This document shows positions 46,317 through 54,831 of a stretch of 64,000 nucleotides of DNA, in pieces. Origin of the DNA: Polyangiaceae bacterium. GTDB lineage: Bacteria > Myxococcota_A > Polyangia > Polyangiales > Polyangiaceae. The notes under the pieces are model-generated. The model ran no database searches, was not told the DNA's origin, and was given only the letters and a program-made list of their open reading frames with translations. The stretch covers positions 62,001 to 126,000 of the forward strand of contig JAHBVX010000015.1 of NCBI GenBank assembly GCA_019637295.1, in the 5' to 3' direction. The stretch's first letter is position 1, and every line of letters begins with the position of its first letter. The position numbers and the translations under genes were made by a program.

Positions 46317-47147
46317 TCAGTCGCTCGCCGCGGGGACCAGTGGGACGACTGCGATGGCGTCCTCGGAGGGGGCGAGGTCGATCCAGACGGTGAACCCGGG
46401 AGCGCCGACCAGCGTGAGTGGCTCGTCCGCGCCGCTCGCGTACGCCTGGCCCGACGTGGACGTGAAGGTCAACGCGCCGATCTCCTTGGCTGCGGTGTCG
46501 ACGGCTTGATACGCGGTCGGTCGAGTCTCGTAGCTCTGGAAGGCCAACTCCGCGTCCTCCGTGGGGAGCTGAACCCGGAGGCGGGCTGGCGAGATCCCGA
46601 CGCCCGCGGGATCGAACATGCGAGCTCGCAGACCGACGAAATCGGCGGGGCCCTCGTCGGAGACGTAGCCATAGTACCCCTCGACCAGATCCGCCGTCGC
46701 CGCGAAGACGTAGGAGTGGCCTGGCGTGAGCACATCGGGCCCGGTGACCTCCTGGAAGCGGAGCGTGAAGCAGAAGTCACCCTGGTGCAGCCCGAGCTGC
46801 GCGTGATCCCGCACGGCCGCGCAGCTCGCGAGCTGCGGCTCCGTGGTGGTGAACGGCTCGGTTGCATAGAAGAACGCCTGCTCGACCCAGAGCGAGAGCG
46901 ACAAGCTCGAGTCGTTCGCGAAGCGAACTTGCGCTGGTGCCTCACCGGGCTCGGTCTCCGCGACGAAGGAAGCGAACAGCATCGGCGGCGCTGCGCCGCC
47001 GCCCGCCGCGCCGCCCATCGCGGACTCACCGCCGGTGTTGCCGACTCCGCCGCCCGCCGCGCCGCCCGAGGAGCCGTTGGCAGGCTCCTCGCCGTCACCG
47101 CAGCCAGAGATCGCCAGGCAGAACGAGACCGCAGACCAGAAGCGCAT
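46317..47147 (-). CDS. Lipoprotein of beta-rich fold
   Basis: The 276-residue product starts at ATG 47147. The signal MRFWSAVSFCLAISGC has lipidated Cys16. A short Gly-rich linker leads to strands such as VRFANDSSLSLSLWVEQAFF, FCFTLRFQEVTGPDVLTPG and RVQLPTEDAELAFQSYETRP. The organisation resembles the DUF4397-type immunoglobulin-like lipoproteins. It is divergent from the selenoprotein gene, 128 bases away, so both promoters lie in that gap. Function unknown. Confidence 0.62.
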   Translation of the reverse strand: MRFWSAVSFCLAISGCGDGEEPANGSSGGAAGGGVGNTGGESAMGGAAGGGAAPPMLFASFVAETEPGEAPAQVRFANDSSLSLSLWVEQAFFYATEPFTTTEPQLASCAAVRDHAQLGLHQGDFCFTLRFQEVTGPDVLTPGHSYVFAATADLVEGYYGYVSDEGPADFVGLRARMFDPAGVGISPARLRVQLPTEDAELAFQSYETRPTAYQAVDTAAKEIGALTFTSTSGQAYASGADEPLTLVGAPGFTVWIDLAPSEDAIAVVPLVPAASD

Positions 47148-47275
47148 GGTGAGGGCTGAGCCTAACATCCGCGCGCTCGCGTGGCACCCTCGCGACTTGA
47201 CGGATGTCATACGACGGAGACAGACTCGACTGAGCTCGTTGCTGACGCGATTGCTCCATGTCACGAGAGAGAGCG

Positions 47276-47920
47276 ATGGCACGGGTCGAGTTGCTGGTTC
47301 TCTCCGCCTTGGCGCTCTTGGGTTGCGGGGCCGAGGACGAGCGTCCCCGCCTGACCCACGCAGACGCTGGTCCGGACGTCGACGTGGACGCGAACTACGA
47401 AGCGAAGGCCCCCTACGCGTGCGGTTGGGCGCACGGCGACCCCGGCAACCTCGAGAGCACCGGCGCGGAGGAAGGAGACGTGATCGAGAACGTGCCGCTC
47501 GTCGACCAGTGCGGTGAGACGGTCCCGCTGTGGGACTTTGCTGGCCAGTACCGCATGTTGTTCATGACGACGGTCTGGTGAGGACCCTGTCGTCAAGAGG
47601 CAGTTGGCCTCGAGAAGAAAGCCGCCGAGTTCGCGACCAGCAGTGGACTCGACTTCTCGTACATCATCGCCCTCACCGAAGACATCCAGGGCAACTTCGT
47701 GAAGGCCTCCGACGCGGCCTACTACGCGTCGACCTTGGACATCCAAATCCCGGTGACCGCGGACGTCGCGTTCCGTCTACTCGAAGCCACTCCGTGGACC
47801 GGGGCGGCCCGGCCCGGCAAGTGCATCCTCACTCCCACCATGGAGATCCTCAGGTGTCATGTCGGCGAAGACGATGACGAGGCATTCGCTGCCATCGTCC
47901 AGCACGCCGCGGGGCGCTAG
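47276..47920 (+). CDS. Thioredoxin-like lipoprotein with in-frame TGA: candidate selenoprotein
   Basis: ATG 47276 follows GAGAGAG; ATG 47258 is an outer alternative. The signal LLVLSALALLGC has lipidated Cys17. The redoxin domain begins at about residue 65 (VIENVPLVDQCG, LWDFAGQYRMLFMTTVW). Codon 102 is TGA, read as Sec, giving TVW-U-GPC instead of the usual W-C-G-P-C. The same frame runs on for 112 codons to TAG 47918-47920 with a thioredoxin-like fold (GLEKKAAEFATSSGLDFSYI, IQIPVTADVAFRLL, GKCILTPTMEILRCHVG, where cis-Pro follows Thr). A hairpin starts 15 bases after the TGA. The full 214-residue product would be a periplasmic or surface Sec-Cys redox enzyme. A nonsense mutation is the alternative, but it would have had to hit exactly the catalytic Cys. 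Confidence 0.83.
47597..47611 (+). promoter_or_regulatory. Candidate bacterial SECIS hairpin
   Basis: GAGGC-AGTTG-GCCTC forms a perfect 5-bp stem with a 5-base loop holding G-U, beginning 15 bases after the TGA at 47579-47581. Bacterial SECIS elements, which bind SelB, lie at this distance and need a G-U in the apical loop. The outer helix cannot be confirmed by eye. Confidence 0.5.
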
Positions 47921-49955
47921 TCTCGCGCTGTGCCTGGCGCTCGTTGCTGCTTGCTCGGAGAGCGAGCGCTCCGCGGGCGGAACGGGAGGCGCCGGGCCCG
48001 ACGTGTTCGTACGACGCGTCGTCGCGGTCACCCTCGACGGCGTGCCGGTCGCCGGCGCGAGCGTGCTCCAAGGAGGGAACCCCGAGCGCTGGACCACCGA
48101 CGACGGCGGACGTGCGGAGATCTCCATCGACCCGACGATCGCCGAGGTGGGCGAGATGGTCGTGATGGCCGCTCACTCCGAGGCGCGGACCGGCTTCGTC
48201 TACGATCCGGGGCCGGCGACGCCAGACCCGATCGAGATCGCGCTCCGCCGCTTCGACCGGACCGACAATCCGGCGTACGTGTTCGGTGATCCCGGCGAGC
48301 CCACGCGTCGTGAGTCCACCGGCCAGTGTGCGCACTGCCACGGTACGATCAACGCCGACTGGGTGAACACGTCGCACCGCGCCGCAGCCAAGAATCCGAC
48401 CGTCCACGATCTGTACGCGGGCACCGTGACCGCGATCGCCACCGCTACGGAGTGCGCTGCCGCGGGAGGCACTTGGGACTTGGCCACCGAGCCTGGCACC
48501 GGCGCGAGCGTCTCTCGCTGTCATCTGGGTGACGGCGTGCTGCCGGCGCTCAACCCCGGCGGTGCTCCGGCGGCGTTCGGTGGTTGCGCGGACTGTCACG
48601 CGCCCGGCATCGACGGTGAGCTCGGTGGGCGCGATCTGCTCGAGGCCACCGGCGTGGCGTTCGAGTACGGTGTGCACTGCGACGTGTGCCACCGCACCGA
48701 GTCGATCGACCTGAGCGCGCCAGCGGGCGTCGCCGGGCGGCTCGGTCTGCTCAGACCGAGCGAGAAACCTCCGACACCAGGGCTCGGAGAGTGGCTGCCG
48801 ATCATGTTTGGCCCCCGCTCGGACGTGCCCAATCCGCTCATGGGCGGCGTGGAGCGGGCCCACTTCCACGACGGCAGGCTGTGCGCGGGCTGTCACCAGC
48901 TGGATCAACCCGTGCTCGTCCCCGGGGCCGCGCTGGACGGTGACCGCTGGCCCGACGCCACCTTGCCCATCCACTCGACGTACAACGAATGGCAGACGGG
49001 GCCGCTGAGCGGCTCGCCGTGCGCGAGCTGCCACATGCCGCCGGATCCGAGCGTGGGCAACGGTGCGGATCTATACAACGAGGTGGCGGGACCGGAGGGA
49101 GTCGCGACGGGCTGGAGGCGCGCGCCCGGAGCGGTCAGACGTCACGTATGGCTCGGGCCGCGAGACGCGGCGGGGAGCCTGAGGAAGCTCGGCGCCGCGC
49201 TGTTCATCGACAAGACGCTGGCGGCGGGCGAGGTCGTCGCGACGGTCAGCGTCGAGAACGTCGGCGCAGGGCACGCCATCCCGACGGGCGAGCCCCTGCG
49301 CTCGCTGCTGCTCCTCGTCGAGGCTCACTGCGGGGCCACTCGGCTCGCGCCGACGGGCGGGGACGTCGTCCCGGACTTCGGCGGCTATCTCGAGCGCAAG
49401 CTCGCCGGTGAAGACTGGAACAGTTGGGTGGCGGCGAAGGTCGGTCAGGTCGTTCGCGTAGTCCAGCACACGGGCAAGTTTCACGACTACGTCGGCTTCG
49501 GTCCGTTCGGCGACGGGCGCTTCTCGGCGGCAGAGAAGGGGATGGCGCAGGAGCGACTGGTGGCTGTTCGCACCGTCGTCGGCGTGCAGGGGCAGAGCGT
49601 GAGCTTCGATCAGCCTCTGCCCGTTGGCGATGTCGCGTACCTGGGTGAGAGCCCCGCGACGCTGGTCGACGGCGCGCCGGCCTCGGCGTTGGCTGGCGCT
49701 GCCGGCTTCGGCTTCGCGCGGGTGCTCGTCGGCGCAGACGGTCGTCGCATGGTGCCGCATTTCCTCGCGGTAGACGTGGCGAGCGACAATCGCCTGCTGC
49801 CGCGGGCCAAGTTCGTGAGCGAGCACCGCTTCGCGGCGAGCTGCGCGGAGCCGGAGATCACCGCGCGGCTCGTGCATCGCGCTTACCCGTGGGATCTCGC
49901 GCGCGAGCGACGCTTCGAACTGACCGAGTCCGTGTTCGCGGAGGCTCGCAAATGA
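47859..49955 (+). CDS. Pentaheme c-type cytochrome lipoprotein
   Basis: The 698-residue product starts at ATG 47859 (ATG 47874 is an alternative), overlapping the selenoprotein gene by 62 bases. The signal SLALCLALVAAC marks a lipoprotein. An N-terminal Ig-like domain (VAVTLDGVPVAGASVLQGG) precedes five CxxCH haem sites: CAHCH, CADCH, CDVCH, CAGCH and CASCH. The C-terminal third is strand-rich (VVATVSVENVGAGHAIPTGE) without haem motifs. This resembles the multihaem nitrite-reductase/octahaem-type superfamily in layout. It probably moves electrons at the cell surface with the copper proteins downstream. Confidence 0.85.
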   Translation: MSAKTMTRHSLPSSSTPRGASLALCLALVAACSESERSAGGTGGAGPDVFVRRVVAVTLDGVPVAGASVLQGGNPERWTTDDGGRAEISIDPTIAEVGEMVVMAAHSEARTGFVYDPGPATPDPIEIALRRFDRTDNPAYVFGDPGEPTRRESTGQCAHCHGTINADWVNTSHRAAAKNPTVHDLYAGTVTAIATATECAAAGGTWDLATEPGTGASVSRCHLGDGVLPALNPGGAPAAFGGCADCHAPGIDGELGGRDLLEATGVAFEYGVHCDVCHRTESIDLSAPAGVAGRLGLLRPSEKPPTPGLGEWLPIMFGPRSDVPNPLMGGVERAHFHDGRLCAGCHQLDQPVLVPGAALDGDRWPDATLPIHSTYNEWQTGPLSGSPCASCHMPPDPSVGNGADLYNEVAGPEGVATGWRRAPGAVRRHVWLGPRDAAGSLRKLGAALFIDKTLAAGEVVATVSVENVGAGHAIPTGEPLRSLLLLVEAHCGATRLAPTGGDVVPDFGGYLERKLAGEDWNSWVAAKVGQVVRVVQHTGKFHDYVGFGPFGDGRFSAAEKGMAQERLVAVRTVVGVQGQSVSFDQPLPVGDVAYLGESPATLVDGAPASALAGAAGFGFARVLVGADGRRMVPHFLAVDVASDNRLLPRAKFVSEHRFAASCAEPEITARLVHRAYPWDLARERRFELTESVFAEARK

Positions 49956-51361
49956 CGCGCAACGCCGCGCTGGTCATGCTCGCCTGCCTGGGCTGTGGCG
50001 AGGCGAACGAGCCTGTCGCCGCTCGAGCGAGCCCTCCGCGTGTGCTGTCCTCACCCGCGGAGGCCGTCGACCTCGACGCCGATCCACTCGTCGTGCACGT
50101 GCGCCTGCGCGCAGCGCCCGCGCTGCATCGCATTGGAGACAGCGAGTACCCGGGCTTCGCCTACAACGGACAGCTGCCCGGCCCGACCATCCGCGCCCGC
50201 GTCGGGGACACGCTCGTCGTCGAACTGGAGAACGCGCTCGAGTTCGACACGACCCTCCACTGGCACGGTCTGAGCGTGCCGTACGCGATGGACGGCGTTA
50301 CCTGGCAGACCGGCGCGGTGAAGCCGGGCGAGACGTTCACCTACTCGTTCGAGGTCACGGCTGCCGGCACGTTCTGGTACCACCCGCACTTCGACAGCGA
50401 ACGGCAGGTGGATCTGGGGTTGTACGGCGCGCTGATCGTGGAAGCGCCGACCGAGCCCGCCCTCGACGACGAGCTGGTGCTGATCTTCGACTCCTGGGGA
50501 GAGTTCCGCGCCGAGTCCGGGAGCGGTGGCCACGGCACGCCGGGCACTCGTCCGGGCGCGCTCGAGCCCGCGTTGGGACCGCTGCACACCAACGAACACA
50601 CGCCCGACCCTGGACGATGGACCGTGAACGGGCTGGTCGCGCCGGCGTTCCCGAGCCGGTCGGGCACGTCGCTGCGGGTCCGGCTGATCAACGCCAGTAA
50701 CGACGATTACCTCGACCTGCACTGGTCGCAGATCCGCCAGATCGCCTCGGACCAAGGGCTACTTCCCGCGCTGCAGACGCCGGAGAGGTTGCTGCTCGCG
50801 CCCGGGGATCGCGCGGAGGTGGAGTGGCTGTTGGGCGGGGACGACTTTGGCATCCACGCCGAGCCGTACTCGATGCACGGAGGTGTCGCGCTCGGCGAGT
50901 CGCACGAGCTCCTTCGAGTCGAGACCGAGGGTAGTCGAACCGCACCCCCCGCGCCCGAGTGGCCATTCTCAGGAACGGCAGCGAGCAGCGATCCCGGGTC
51001 CACCGACATCGTGTACGTCTTCACGGGCGACGCCGGCGGTAGCGACTGGCGCATCAACGGCGAACGCTACCCGGACGTCACGATCGAGGAGCTCGACCTC
51101 GGTTCGACGGCGGTGCTCGAGCTGCGAAACGCGTCCGCCACCGAGCACCCCTTTCACCTACATGGTCACGCCTTCGAGGTGCTGGCGGTGGGCGGCGTAG
51201 CGCCGGCGGTCCGGATGCTCGAAGACACGATCAACGTGCGGATCGGCGAGGTGGTCAGGCTCCGTCTCCACGCGGACAACGTCGGCGACTGGATGGCGCA
51301 CTGCCACCTGCTCTCGCACGCAGAAGGCGGAATGATGACGGTGCTTCGGGTGCGACCATGA
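49952..51361 (+). CDS. Multicopper oxidase, predicted lipoprotein
   Basis: The 469-residue product overlaps the cytochrome gene (ATGA). The signal NAALVMLACLGC gives the lipidated Cys13. Copper sites are complete: LHWHGLSVP and FWYHPHFDSE (domain 1), HPFHLHGHAFEV and WMAHCHLLSHAEGGMM (domain 3, with type-1 Cys and Met). Such enzymes oxidise substrates by four-electron reduction of O2, for example laccases, cuprous or ferrous oxidases. No Met-rich insertion is seen. Position between haem and cupredoxin genes suggests electron input from these partners. Confidence 0.92.
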   Translation: MTRNAALVMLACLGCGEANEPVAARASPPRVLSSPAEAVDLDADPLVVHVRLRAAPALHRIGDSEYPGFAYNGQLPGPTIRARVGDTLVVELENALEFDTTLHWHGLSVPYAMDGVTWQTGAVKPGETFTYSFEVTAAGTFWYHPHFDSERQVDLGLYGALIVEAPTEPALDDELVLIFDSWGEFRAESGSGGHGTPGTRPGALEPALGPLHTNEHTPDPGRWTVNGLVAPAFPSRSGTSLRVRLINASNDDYLDLHWSQIRQIASDQGLLPALQTPERLLLAPGDRAEVEWLLGGDDFGIHAEPYSMHGGVALGESHELLRVETEGSRTAPPAPEWPFSGTAASSDPGSTDIVYVFTGDAGGSDWRINGERYPDVTIEELDLGSTAVLELRNASATEHPFHLHGHAFEVLAVGGVAPAVRMLEDTINVRIGEVVRLRLHADNVGDWMAHCHLLSHAEGGMMTVLRVRP

Positions 51362-52198: not shown

Positions 52199-53479
52199 AT
52201 GAAGTCTCGAGCACGTTCCTCCCGAATCCTCCTCGCGGCGATGGCGCTGGCGAGCCTCGTCCTCGTATTCTCCGTCACCCGCGACGCTGAGGCGATCCCC
52301 GCGTTCGCTCGCCAGTACGGTCGTGACTGCCAGACGTGTCACGTCGCGTATCCCAAGCTCACGCCCTTTGGTGAGGCATTCCGGCGCAACGGCTGGCGCC
52401 ACCCGGGAGGGGGCGACGCGGACTACCTGCGCGATCCGCCCATCCCCCTCGGTCAAGAGCAGTACGCGAAGCTGTTCCCGCACACCGTTTGGCCCGGGCG
52501 GACACCGGCGCACATCCCACTAGCCGTGACGATCGCGGCGCGCGCCGACTACGAGCCGCACTCGGACGCCAAGCTGAGCTTTGCGAACATGGCCGGCAAC
52601 GTCGGGCTCGTCGCGGCCAGCAGCATCGACGACGTGTTCTCGGGCTGGGCGGGCGTGACGCTGCGGGCCGAGGGTGACGTCGTGTCGGTGGAGGTCGAAC
52701 GGGTGTTCGGGGTCGTGCAGCCCTTCGACGATCCGGTCATGAACCTGAGGCTCGGTCGCTTCGATCCGACGCTGTGGAATCTCTCGAATCATCGCATGCT
52801 CGGCCTGACGCCCTGGATGATGTCGACGCCAGTGCGTGACAATCCGTTCACGCCGCTGCCGACGCAGACCGGCTTCGAGCTGGGCGGTGTGGTTGGCGCC
52901 GGCAGGGTCGACTACGCCGTTGGAGTGGTGGAGGGAGGAGGCGATCGCGTCAACACCTTCAAGGACGTCTACGCCCACCTCGGCGCGAAGCTCGGCGGCC
53001 TTCGCCTCGACGGCAAGGACGCCGATCAGGTCTCCGCCCAGGCTTGGCGCGAGACGAGCGTACAGCTAGGCGGCTTCGGATACTTCGGGCAGGCCGCGCT
53101 CGGCGATCCCGCGCTTGCCAGTCAGGAGGATCGCTTCTTCCTGGTCGGAGGCGAAGCGTCCGCCACCCTCCGGGATTTCAACCTGATACTCGCCGGCGCC
53201 TACGGCAGAAATCAACGGCCGTCGTTCGCCGAGCCGAACGAGAAGGCCAACACGATCCACCTCATGAGCCAGCTCGACGTGGTCGTCTACCCTTGGCTCG
53301 TCCCCACGGTGCGCCTCGAGTGGCGCGACGTCGCGGACGCAGGCGCCACCCGCGCTAGCGGCGGGGCCTACTGGCTGTTGCGAGCCAACGTCCGCGCTCA
53401 GCTGCTCGCCTCGGTGGCGAACGACGGCGGACACCTCGAGCTTACCCAGGTCCTGGCCGGGTTGAACCTCGCGCTCTGA
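52199..53479 (+). CDS. Monohaem cytochrome/outer-membrane barrel-like protein
   Basis: The 426-residue product starts at ATG 52199 after GGAG. The signal LLAAMALASLVLVFSV is followed by IPAFARQYGRDCQTCHVAYP, a CxxCH haem site in a short N-terminal domain also known from other myxobacterial proteins, then LTPFGEAFRRNGWRHPG. The rest is a series of amphipathic strands ending in HLELTQVLAGLNLAL, as in porins. A porin-cytochrome hybrid of this kind could carry electrons across the outer membrane. It belongs to the redox cluster by position. Confidence 0.78.
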   Translation: MKSRARSSRILLAAMALASLVLVFSVTRDAEAIPAFARQYGRDCQTCHVAYPKLTPFGEAFRRNGWRHPGGGDADYLRDPPIPLGQEQYAKLFPHTVWPGRTPAHIPLAVTIAARADYEPHSDAKLSFANMAGNVGLVAASSIDDVFSGWAGVTLRAEGDVVSVEVERVFGVVQPFDDPVMNLRLGRFDPTLWNLSNHRMLGLTPWMMSTPVRDNPFTPLPTQTGFELGGVVGAGRVDYAVGVVEGGGDRVNTFKDVYAHLGAKLGGLRLDGKDADQVSAQAWRETSVQLGGFGYFGQAALGDPALASQEDRFFLVGGEASATLRDFNLILAGAYGRNQRPSFAEPNEKANTIHLMSQLDVVVYPWLVPTVRLEWRDVADAGATRASGGAYWLLRANVRAQLLASVANDGGHLELTQVLAGLNLAL

Positions 53480-53494
53480 GAAAGACGAAGCAAC

Positions 53495-54307
53495 ATGAAG
53501 ACGTCGATTCCGTGGTGGGTCATGATGGCGGCAGCGCTCGCCTCATCCTCGGCTTGCACCAAGGATCTCGCGGAGCTGGGCATGGGCCCCGTGGTGCCGG
53601 AGTCTCCCGCCGCCGACCATGAAGAGCCGGCGGCCCCAACCCCGCCGGCGGCCCAGGTCTGCAGCTGTCCCCACTCTCACGAGCCCGCGCTCGCTCAGCC
53701 ACTCGCTCCCGGTGAGCCAGACTCCCGCACCGCCAGCGACGGTGGCGAGGCACCGCCGAGCCCCGCGGTCGTCGCGCCCGTGGCGACTGGGGTAGGAAGC
53801 ATCCGAGGAGTCGTCACCAGCCCTCCGCGGTCCACCAGAGCCGTCGTCTACGTGGAAGGTGCTCCCGCCGATCCTAGCCGCGGCATGCGCGCGAGCGTGA
53901 ATCAGCACCGGATGCAGTTCATCCCCCACGTCACGACCGTGTCCGTCGGCGGCAAGGTCGTGTTCCACAATGGTGATCCCTTCCCGCACAACGTGTTCTC
54001 CCCCGACCAAGGAGGCTTCGACTTGGGCACCTGGGGCAAGGGGGGCGCGCGGGTCTACACCTTCAAACGACCAGGCATCTACAGTCTGCTGTGCAACCTC
54101 CACCCCGCCATGCTCGCCTACGTAGTCGCGGTGCCATCGAGCCACTTCGCTGTGACGGATCGCAGCGGTGCCTTCGAGATCCAGGGCGTTCCGCAGGGGA
54201 GCTATCAGGTCACGGCCACCGGCCCGCGCCTCGGGCAAGCGACGAAGACGGTGGCGGTGGCTGGGGGCGAGGTGAGCGTCGACTTCGTACTGGAGAAGAG
54301 CAAATGA
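53495..54307 (+). CDS. Cupredoxin-domain lipoprotein with carboxypeptidase-regulatory-like tail
   Basis: The 270-residue product starts at ATG 53495. Its signal ends ALASSSAC (lipobox). A Pro/Ala spacer with CSCPHSH leads to a plastocyanin-like domain (about 105-210): QFIPHVTTVSVGGKVVFHNG, FPHNVFSPD, then CNLHPAMLAYV, giving the type-1 copper ligands His, Cys, His and Met. A CarboxypepD_reg-like domain (FAVTDRSGAFEIQGVPQGSY) ends the protein. It probably shuttles electrons between oxidase and cytochromes. Confidence 0.85.
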   Translation: MKTSIPWWVMMAAALASSSACTKDLAELGMGPVVPESPAADHEEPAAPTPPAAQVCSCPHSHEPALAQPLAPGEPDSRTASDGGEAPPSPAVVAPVATGVGSIRGVVTSPPRSTRAVVYVEGAPADPSRGMRASVNQHRMQFIPHVTTVSVGGKVVFHNGDPFPHNVFSPDQGGFDLGTWGKGGARVYTFKRPGIYSLLCNLHPAMLAYVVAVPSSHFAVTDRSGAFEIQGVPQGSYQVTATGPRLGQATKTVAVAGGEVSVDFVLEKSK

Positions 54308-54831
54308 CGAATCGCTGGCTGATGATCGCGGCTGTCTCACTCGGCGCTCTGTCGCTCGGCGCCTGCAAGGAGAAGGCAGCGCAGGCGGTCGAGAGCCACC
54401 CCGAGCCGCCCGCGGACAAGCCAGCACCGAAGGCGCCCGACCCTGCCGCCAAGCCGGTCGAATCGGCGCCGCGCGTGATCGAGATCGCGTCCAAGGGCAA
54501 TCGCTTGGAGTTCGACGTCACGAAGCTGACCATGAAGGAAGGTGAGCGCGTGAAGCTCGTGCTCGTCAACAAGGCCACGCTCGACGTCATGCCGCACAAC
54601 TGGGTGTTGATTCGGCCTGGCACCGCGGACAAGGTCGGCGCCGCGGGTCAGGAGCGGTCGGACAGTGACTACGTCGTCCCGAGCCCGGACGTGCTGGCGT
54701 ACACCCCGGTGGCCAAGCACGGGCAGACCGTCGAGGTGACGTTCACCGCGCCGGCCGCCGGCAAGTACGAGTACATCTGTACGGTGATGGGGCACTGGAT
54801 CACCATGAAGGGCGAGCTCGTCGTGGAGTGA
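54304..54831 (+). CDS. Azurin-like cupredoxin lipoprotein
   Basis: The 175-residue product overlaps the previous gene (ATGA). The signal MIAAVSLGALSLGAC has the lipidated Cys21. After a Pro/Ala/Lys spacer comes the azurin fold: GNRLEFDVTKLTMKEGERVK, VMPHNWVLIRPG (first His) and YICTVMGHWITMKGEL, with Cys, His at +5 and Met four further, the spacing of azurin. A blue copper electron carrier at the membrane surface. It closes the redox cluster. Confidence 0.9.
   Translation: MTNRWLMIAAVSLGALSLGACKEKAAQAVESHPEPPADKPAPKAPDPAAKPVESAPRVIEIASKGNRLEFDVTKLTMKEGERVKLVLVNKATLDVMPHNWVLIRPGTADKVGAAGQERSDSDYVVPSPDVLAYTPVAKHGQTVEVTFTAPAAGKYEYICTVMGHWITMKGELVVE

Follow-up and report, generated by a model that had tools for sequence, protein, structure and literature searches.

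Whether the in-frame TGA at 47579-47581 ends a gene, or is read as selenocysteine (Sec) inside a longer one, decides what kind of protein this locus encodes. The window, meaning the whole stretch of 64,000 nucleotides from Polyangiaceae bacterium that was analysed, holds on its forward strand a frame that runs from an ATG at 47276 to a TAG at 47918-47920, with this TGA, codon 102, as its sole interruption. Comparison with related sequences indicates, with a probability of about 0.95, that 47276-47920 encodes a selenoprotein. Its product would be a protein of 214 amino acids with Sec as residue 102, composed of a lipoprotein-type signal, a short linker and a TlpA/ResA-like thioredoxin-fold domain.

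The reading frame and its TGA codon

The TGA is preceded by codons for TVW and followed by codons for GPC, which places it at the first Cys position of a WCGPC-type motif and makes Sec the first residue of a U-x-x-C pair. The second residue of the pair, Cys 105, is the presumed resolving Cys; its codon lies at 47588-47590 (forward strand), and the residue is identical in all 12 aligned rows. After the TGA, 112 codons remain. The G+C fraction at the three codon positions is 0.70, 0.46 and 0.86 before the TGA versus 0.63, 0.48 and 0.80 after it, and because the two profiles are alike, the part beyond the TGA looks like coding sequence in the same frame. A preliminary description of the locus, made from the sequence alone, had given the coordinates of the frame and of the TGA and the residues around it correctly. 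It had also predicted that gene callers would split or truncate the gene, and the list of open reading frames made with translation table 11 does end it at the TGA (47258-47581, 107 amino acids). Annotation of that style would consequently drop the part of the gene with the resolving Cys and the cis-Pro. Translation might alternatively begin upstream, at an in-frame ATG at 47258.

Homologues and exchange between Sec and Cys

Homologues are widespread. At the level of the order, some match to the window's protein is found in 54 of 183 genomes, and the five matches at E ≤ 7.9e-25 in other genomes of the order contain one TGA each. In a sample of the phylum, 306 of 377 genomes match a six-protein profile at E 0.001, mostly weakly. 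The codon at the Sec column was counted over 87 distinct homologous rows, taken from the best matches returned and from regions that had been chosen, so that the figures describe a selection and not a census. Three rows are gapped at this column; the other 84 comprise 45 with TGA, 38 with TGC or TGT and one with GAC. The alignment of codon 102 that the preliminary description had proposed as a check therefore finds both TGA and Cys codons there.

A tree was built from 56 rows, after masking of the Sec residue and removal of rows with E > 1e-20; one row was lost because two domains of locus L113 bore one name. The window's protein falls in a clade of 21 rows, 14 with Sec (TGA) and 7 with Cys, with a support of 100/100, and the whole tree requires seven changes between Sec and Cys. 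The presence of TGA in the same column in 13 other members of this closest clade is beyond chance and bears out the assignment of Sec to codon 102. One genome, G250, holds both kinds of clade member, a Sec form (L081) and a Cys form (L106). With Sec and Cys members of these lipoprotein-type selenoproteins occurring in a single phylum, and together in G250, the exchange of the two residues can be tested between near relatives.

Other Sec-type redoxins were encountered during this comparison. Eight loci in genomes from a different family of this phylum, L113 (G325:C15:33000-42000), L091, L094, L095, L098, L099, L101 and L102, carry at least two adjacent Sec-type redoxin genes, each with its own TGA and mostly with the motif A[FV]WUG[SA]C; these tandem genes are an expanded selenoprotein family. 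A further candidate selenoprotein, with the motif WUPPC, is found at L058:5148-5864 in G112, far from the window's clade. Within the window's order, a candidate Sec redoxin with the motif WUTSC lies near position 4584 of L059 (forward strand) in G051.

Selenocysteine machinery

The window's assembly comprises 7.65 Mb in 25 contigs and is 98.5% complete. Searching it for selA, selB, selC and selD, the check suggested at the outset, returned all four above the curated cut-offs: selA at 478.9 (cut-off 267.9), selB at 272.4 (242.25), selD at 309.3 (125) and a single tRNA-Sec gene (selC) at 70 bits (47). The anticodon loop of this tRNA, CUUCAAA, contains the anticodon UCA. The selD gene itself has an in-frame TGA within the motif GGGUARK (L062:1900-2900, reverse strand) and is a second selenoprotein gene of the genome; the motif fits the SelD UxxK Sec site in Table 1 of PMC13188914.

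The machinery was also surveyed across relatives. The 14 Sec members of the clade come from 13 genomes, and 12 of these were examined, the genome of L074 being left out. All 12 have selA above the cut-off. Among five further genomes with a Cys member, selA passes in four, and the remaining one, G400, has it split between two contigs and scores below the cut-off. Among seven members of the family with distant homologues only, selA is present in three and absent in four. A tRNA-Sec reaches the cut-off in 8 of the 12 examined genomes with a TGA member. Three of the genomes that miss it (G115, G388 and G444) are 73-80% complete; the fourth, G190, is 97% complete and has a best match of 44.2 bits against the cut-off of 47.

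The downstream hairpin

A predicted bacterial SECIS hairpin occupies 47597-47611 of the forward strand, with the stem GAGGC/GCCTC and the loop AGTTG. It begins 15 bases after the TGA and has GU at loop positions 2-3, in agreement with the position and loop that had been reported for it. The register, meaning a 5-bp stem and G at loop position 2, is kept in all 14 Sec rows of the clade versus 1 of 7 Cys rows. In the alignment of the 14 Sec rows, 96.4% of the cells of a six-pair helix can pair, compared with 31-51% when the helix is slid along the sequence, and three of the six pairs have changed on both sides in a compensatory manner. The covariation score of 0.273, against 0.146 in shuffled alignments, was reached by none of 500 shuffles; the number of pairs with a double change was equalled by 10 of the 500 and the number of further pair types by 61. 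The same helix is recovered by RNAalifold. In the Cys rows, 66.7% of the cells pair at this register versus 24-45% when slid, with no double change, which means that common coding sequence or ancestry accounts for some of the pairing.

As the hairpin lies within codons, a null model of synonymous recoding with the window's codon usage was applied. For the 14 Sec rows it predicts 3.69 hairpins where 14 are seen (P ~2e-9 under independence of the rows, which holds only in part). In the window's own case, 26-28% of such recodings yield the hairpin; a single hairpin is consequently rejected as proof, given that about one recoding in four produces one. The window's hairpin on its own is weak evidence, and it is the clade that makes the hairpin evidence strong.

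The published model of the bacterial SECIS element, as given in the accessible part of PMC13188914, specifies an apical loop of 3-9 nt, an upper stem of 4-16 bp, a G in the first two loop positions that is often followed by G or U, a distance of 16-37 nt from the UGA to the apical loop, and a minimum free energy of -7.5 kcal/mol or lower. Measured against this portion of the model, the window's loop of 5 nt and stem of 5 bp are both within the limits, the loop AGTTG has the required G, and the spacing from the UGA to the apical loop is 20 nt, also within the limits. Its energy straddles the -7.5 kcal/mol stated there: -6.9 kcal/mol for the bare stem-loop, -8.3 in 21 nt with flanks and -9.4 in 40 nt. 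The SECIS test that the preliminary description had called for is thus positive on geometry and clade covariation and borderline on energy (-6.9 to -9.4 kcal/mol). A script with four criteria, which takes the energy from the bare stem, passes 11 of the 14 clade rows with Sec and 2 of the 7 with Cys, and the window is among the three Sec rows that it misses, on energy. Outside the clade it passes 27 of 31 TGA rows versus none of 32 other rows. When 61 nt of the window are folded without constraint, an alternative structure that pairs the UGA is better than the hairpin. A ribosome with the UGA in its A site would cover bases of such an alternative fold.

A Cys orthologue, L087 in G429, still has a five-pair hairpin with the loop G in the SECIS register, for which the chance under synonymous recoding is 0.18; it is perhaps a relic of a change from Sec to Cys.

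Two other accounts of the TGA have to be weighed against Sec insertion. The gene could be a pseudogene, or its sequence erroneous, with the TGA arising from damage to a Cys codon or from a miscalled base; one base change turns TGC or TGT into TGA, and relatives with Cys exist. Against this stand the 13 other clade members with TGA at the same codon, the preservation of Pro 180, Cys 183 and Cys 194 in the frame beyond the TGA, and the covariation of the downstream hairpin. Since other genomes have TGA at this codon and still others TGC or TGT, a base error at 47579-47581 is an unreasonable explanation, and the whole explanation, held to be refuted by the relatives, retains a negligible probability. 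The continuation of the frame would equally be expected if TGA were reassigned, or read through in the ordinary way, for example as Trp, with no use of selenium. However, six genes downstream of the selenoprotein gene all use TGA as their stop, which means that the genetic code is unaltered; a complete Sec machinery is encoded in the genome, and the relatives have Cys at the column in question and Trp in none of the 84 homologous rows. This account was rejected on stop usage and on the homologue column, and is scarcely more credible than an error. Sec insertion at codon 102 is the preferred reading of the TGA.

Protein architecture

The signal sequence (47276-47326, forward strand) has the lipobox LLGC, which ends at residue 17. 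Cys 17 would be the lipidated residue and is present in all 12 aligned rows, in line with the exported lipoprotein of the preliminary description; the product is probably exported and lipid-anchored, judging from this signal. In Pfam, the window's protein matches AhpC-TSA (PF00578) at 30.5 against a cut-off of 26 and Redoxin (PF08534) at 30.7 against 26.6. At E 0.001, AhpC-TSA is matched by all 12 aligned members, Redoxin by 6 and the bacterial TSP3 repeat by 11; the one aligned member with no TSP3 repeats is the window's protein.

In the 12-row protein alignment, in which Sec was written as Cys, the invariant positions are the lipobox Cys, His 53, Trp 101, position 102, Cys 105, Glu 108, Pro 180, Cys 183 and Cys 194. 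In L079, a clade member outside this alignment, Phe replaces Trp 101. The codon of Pro 180 lies at 47813-47815 (forward strand). This residue is regarded as the thioredoxin-fold cis-Pro and stands just before a strand in the confident part of the structure model, which upholds the earlier reading of the region after the TGA as a redoxin C-terminus with cis-Pro. Cys 49 and Cys 79 are present in 11 of the 12 rows and are both missing from L070; their joint absence suggests that the two may pair.

The structure model has a mean pLDDT of 84.5 and is low in the first ~40 residues only. Besides ResA, DsbE and Etrx2, the fold and sequence-profile matches include peroxiredoxins and Sco proteins. The TlpA/ResA-like fold and the W-U-G-P-C motif are supported by comparison, and with them the earlier description of the protein as thioredoxin-like. 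None of the eight members scanned passes an NCBIfam cut-off: the window's protein scores 24 for TlpA against a cut-off of 230 and 20 for ResA against 170.

Gene neighbourhood

The end of the selenoprotein gene is overlapped by the start of a gene for a lipoprotein-type cytochrome of 698 residues with five CXXCH motifs (47859-49955, forward strand). It is followed by a multicopper oxidase (49949-51361, forward strand, start approximate), a protein with a sub-threshold anti-sigma match, an exported-type protein with one CXXCH motif and no Pfam match at E 0.01 (52199-53479, forward strand), a cupredoxin-domain protein (53495-54307, forward strand) and a plastocyanin/azurin-type cupredoxin (54304-54831, forward strand, start approximate). 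Both cupredoxins match Pfam Copper-bind above the cut-off, and the second matches NCBIfam azurin below it. The five-haem cytochrome has a Pfam match below the cut-off only, and a PDB sequence search with its family profile finds a short stretch like cytochrome c552; its predicted structure is of low confidence (mean pLDDT 47.4) and was excluded from the fold search. On the other side of the selenoprotein gene, a divergent lipoprotein-type gene at 46317-47147 (reverse strand), with no Pfam match at E 0.01, has relatives beside the redoxin loci L053 and L057.

The five-haem cytochrome lies within 6.5 kb at 10 of the 21 clade loci, the window included, in a count limited at several loci by contig ends or short flanks. 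It is downstream on the same strand at eight of the ten, upstream at L053 and on the other strand at L121, and all nine copies checked have five CXXCH motifs. Five loci have an extra gene downstream of the redoxin, and the copy that was scanned, in L074, matches cytochrome c; in the four of these loci that have the cytochrome, the extra gene sits between it and the redoxin. In the phylum sample, the cytochrome is found at E 1e-60 in 12 of 14 genomes with the redoxin clade versus 58 of 363 others (Fisher P 5e-8, uncorrected for kinship), where the 14 are the genomes with a best redoxin match above 250 bits, a limit set after the list had been seen. Because the cytochrome is frequent in genomes with no clade redoxin (58 of them), the link is a preference and not a rule. 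The pair of cytochrome and multicopper oxidase (window 47859-51361) also occurs in G429 (L138) and G222 (L139) with no redoxin beside it.

Proposed function

Comparison supports the Sec codon with its machinery and hairpin, and likewise the fold and the active-site motif. In the mechanism proposed here, the UGA at codon 102 would be read as selenocysteine by means of SelB, tRNA-Sec and the SECIS hairpin 15 bases downstream. The product, which would be exported and is probably lipid-anchored, would combine a TlpA/ResA-like thioredoxin fold with a W-Sec-Gly-Pro-Cys active site. Sec would attack a substrate disulfide, and Cys 105 would resolve the mixed selenosulfide. Disulfide reduction is a likely activity. 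The clients of ResA and TlpA are apocytochrome c and copper sites. By analogy, the likeliest candidates for the substrate would be the thiols of the co-encoded exported cytochrome or copper proteins, which would be kept reduced; this assignment falls somewhat short of an even chance.

A narrower form of this explanation, and an improbable one, makes the protein a reductant or chaperone for copper sites in the manner of TlpA and Sco, serving the downstream multicopper oxidase and cupredoxins. The presence of the oxidase and two cupredoxins on the same strand and of Sco structures among the fold matches speaks for it, but a tblastn search over the loci then gathered found the oxidase at one locus (L106), versus the cytochrome near 10 of the 21 clade loci; short flanks are common among the loci. 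Lower still is the probability that the protein is a selenocysteine peroxiredoxin, an exported peroxidase and not a disulfide reductase. The Pfam matches to AhpC-TSA and Redoxin would fit this view, and in VIA-align 2 the Bcp peroxiredoxins are level with DsbE and ResA, tied at Z 16.0 to 15.5. The peroxiredoxin active-site motif is PxxxTxxU according to the accessible text of PMC13188914, and it is not kept here: of the 12 rows, two have Thr at position -3 and ten have Ala, the window has Leu and not Pro at -7, and the motif is W-U-x-x-C. Membership of the peroxiredoxin family was rejected on this motif, and peroxidase as an activity is not thereby rejected. For a disulfide reductase, the preferred reading, the neighbourhood allows a wider and speculative picture, in which Myxococcota would possess a selenium-dependent exported module for electron transfer. 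The redoxin would keep reduced those thiols of the five-haem cytochrome and the oxidase that bind haem or copper, or exchange electrons with the cytochrome. As the start of the cytochrome gene lies within the last part of the selenoprotein gene, translation of the cytochrome could be coupled to selenium supply through Sec insertion. This module is doubtful, about as improbable as the copper-site role.

Comparison with known systems

ResA, TlpA and DsbE-type oxidoreductases have the fold and a W-C-x-x-C-type motif in common with the window's protein, and the sequence matches to them are weak. The window's protein differs from them in having Sec for the first Cys, in scores far below the NCBIfam cut-offs and in two additional pairs of Cys residues (49/79, present in 11 of 12 rows, and 183/194, present in all 12). 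The surface thioredoxin lipoproteins Etrx1 and Etrx2 of Streptococcus pneumoniae are thioredoxin-fold lipoproteins too, and are among the sequence and structure matches, but belong to another lineage. Etrx1 and Etrx2 have Cys where the window's protein has Sec. The TUGYCR-motif thioredoxin-fold (seleno)proteins (NF053656) share the thioredoxin fold and the use of Sec or Cys, yet the best member scanned reaches 17.8 bits against a cut-off of 100, and the window's protein is not among the matches at E up to 1.

Full-text literature searches found no paper on selenoproteins of the phylum Myxococcota. Myxobacteria were formerly placed in the Deltaproteobacteria. This older class is rich in selenoproteins, according to the accessible parts of PMC13188914, PMC9312934 and PMC5029168. 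A 2026 catalogue of 119 families includes, in the part available, UxxC selenoproteins with Redoxin or AhpC/TSA domains (PMC13188914), and the accessible part of an ocean survey also contains UxxC selenoproteins of this kind (PMC2398784). The following comparisons are by description and extend to the accessible part of each source. No TSP3 lipoprotein redoxin is named in Table 1 of PMC13188914 to that extent. The Redoxin family selenoprotein (PF08534, UxxC; Table 1 of PMC13188914 and Prx-like 3 of PMC2398784) shares the Pfam Redoxin domain and UxxC with the window's protein. Set against the available description in PMC13188914, the aligned members have a lipobox Cys in 12 of 12 cases, a Redoxin match at E 0.001 in 6 of 12 and TSP3 repeats in 11 of 12 (the window's protein being the exception), and a five-haem cytochrome is often nearby. 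The peroxiredoxin-like thiol:disulfide oxidoreductase selenoprotein (PF00578, UxxC/UxxU), as described in the accessible Table 1 of PMC13188914, shares UxxC and the AhpC-TSA domain, which is found in 12 of 12 members here. The window's protein adds a member to these already catalogued UxxC selenoproteins with Redoxin/AhpC-TSA domains.
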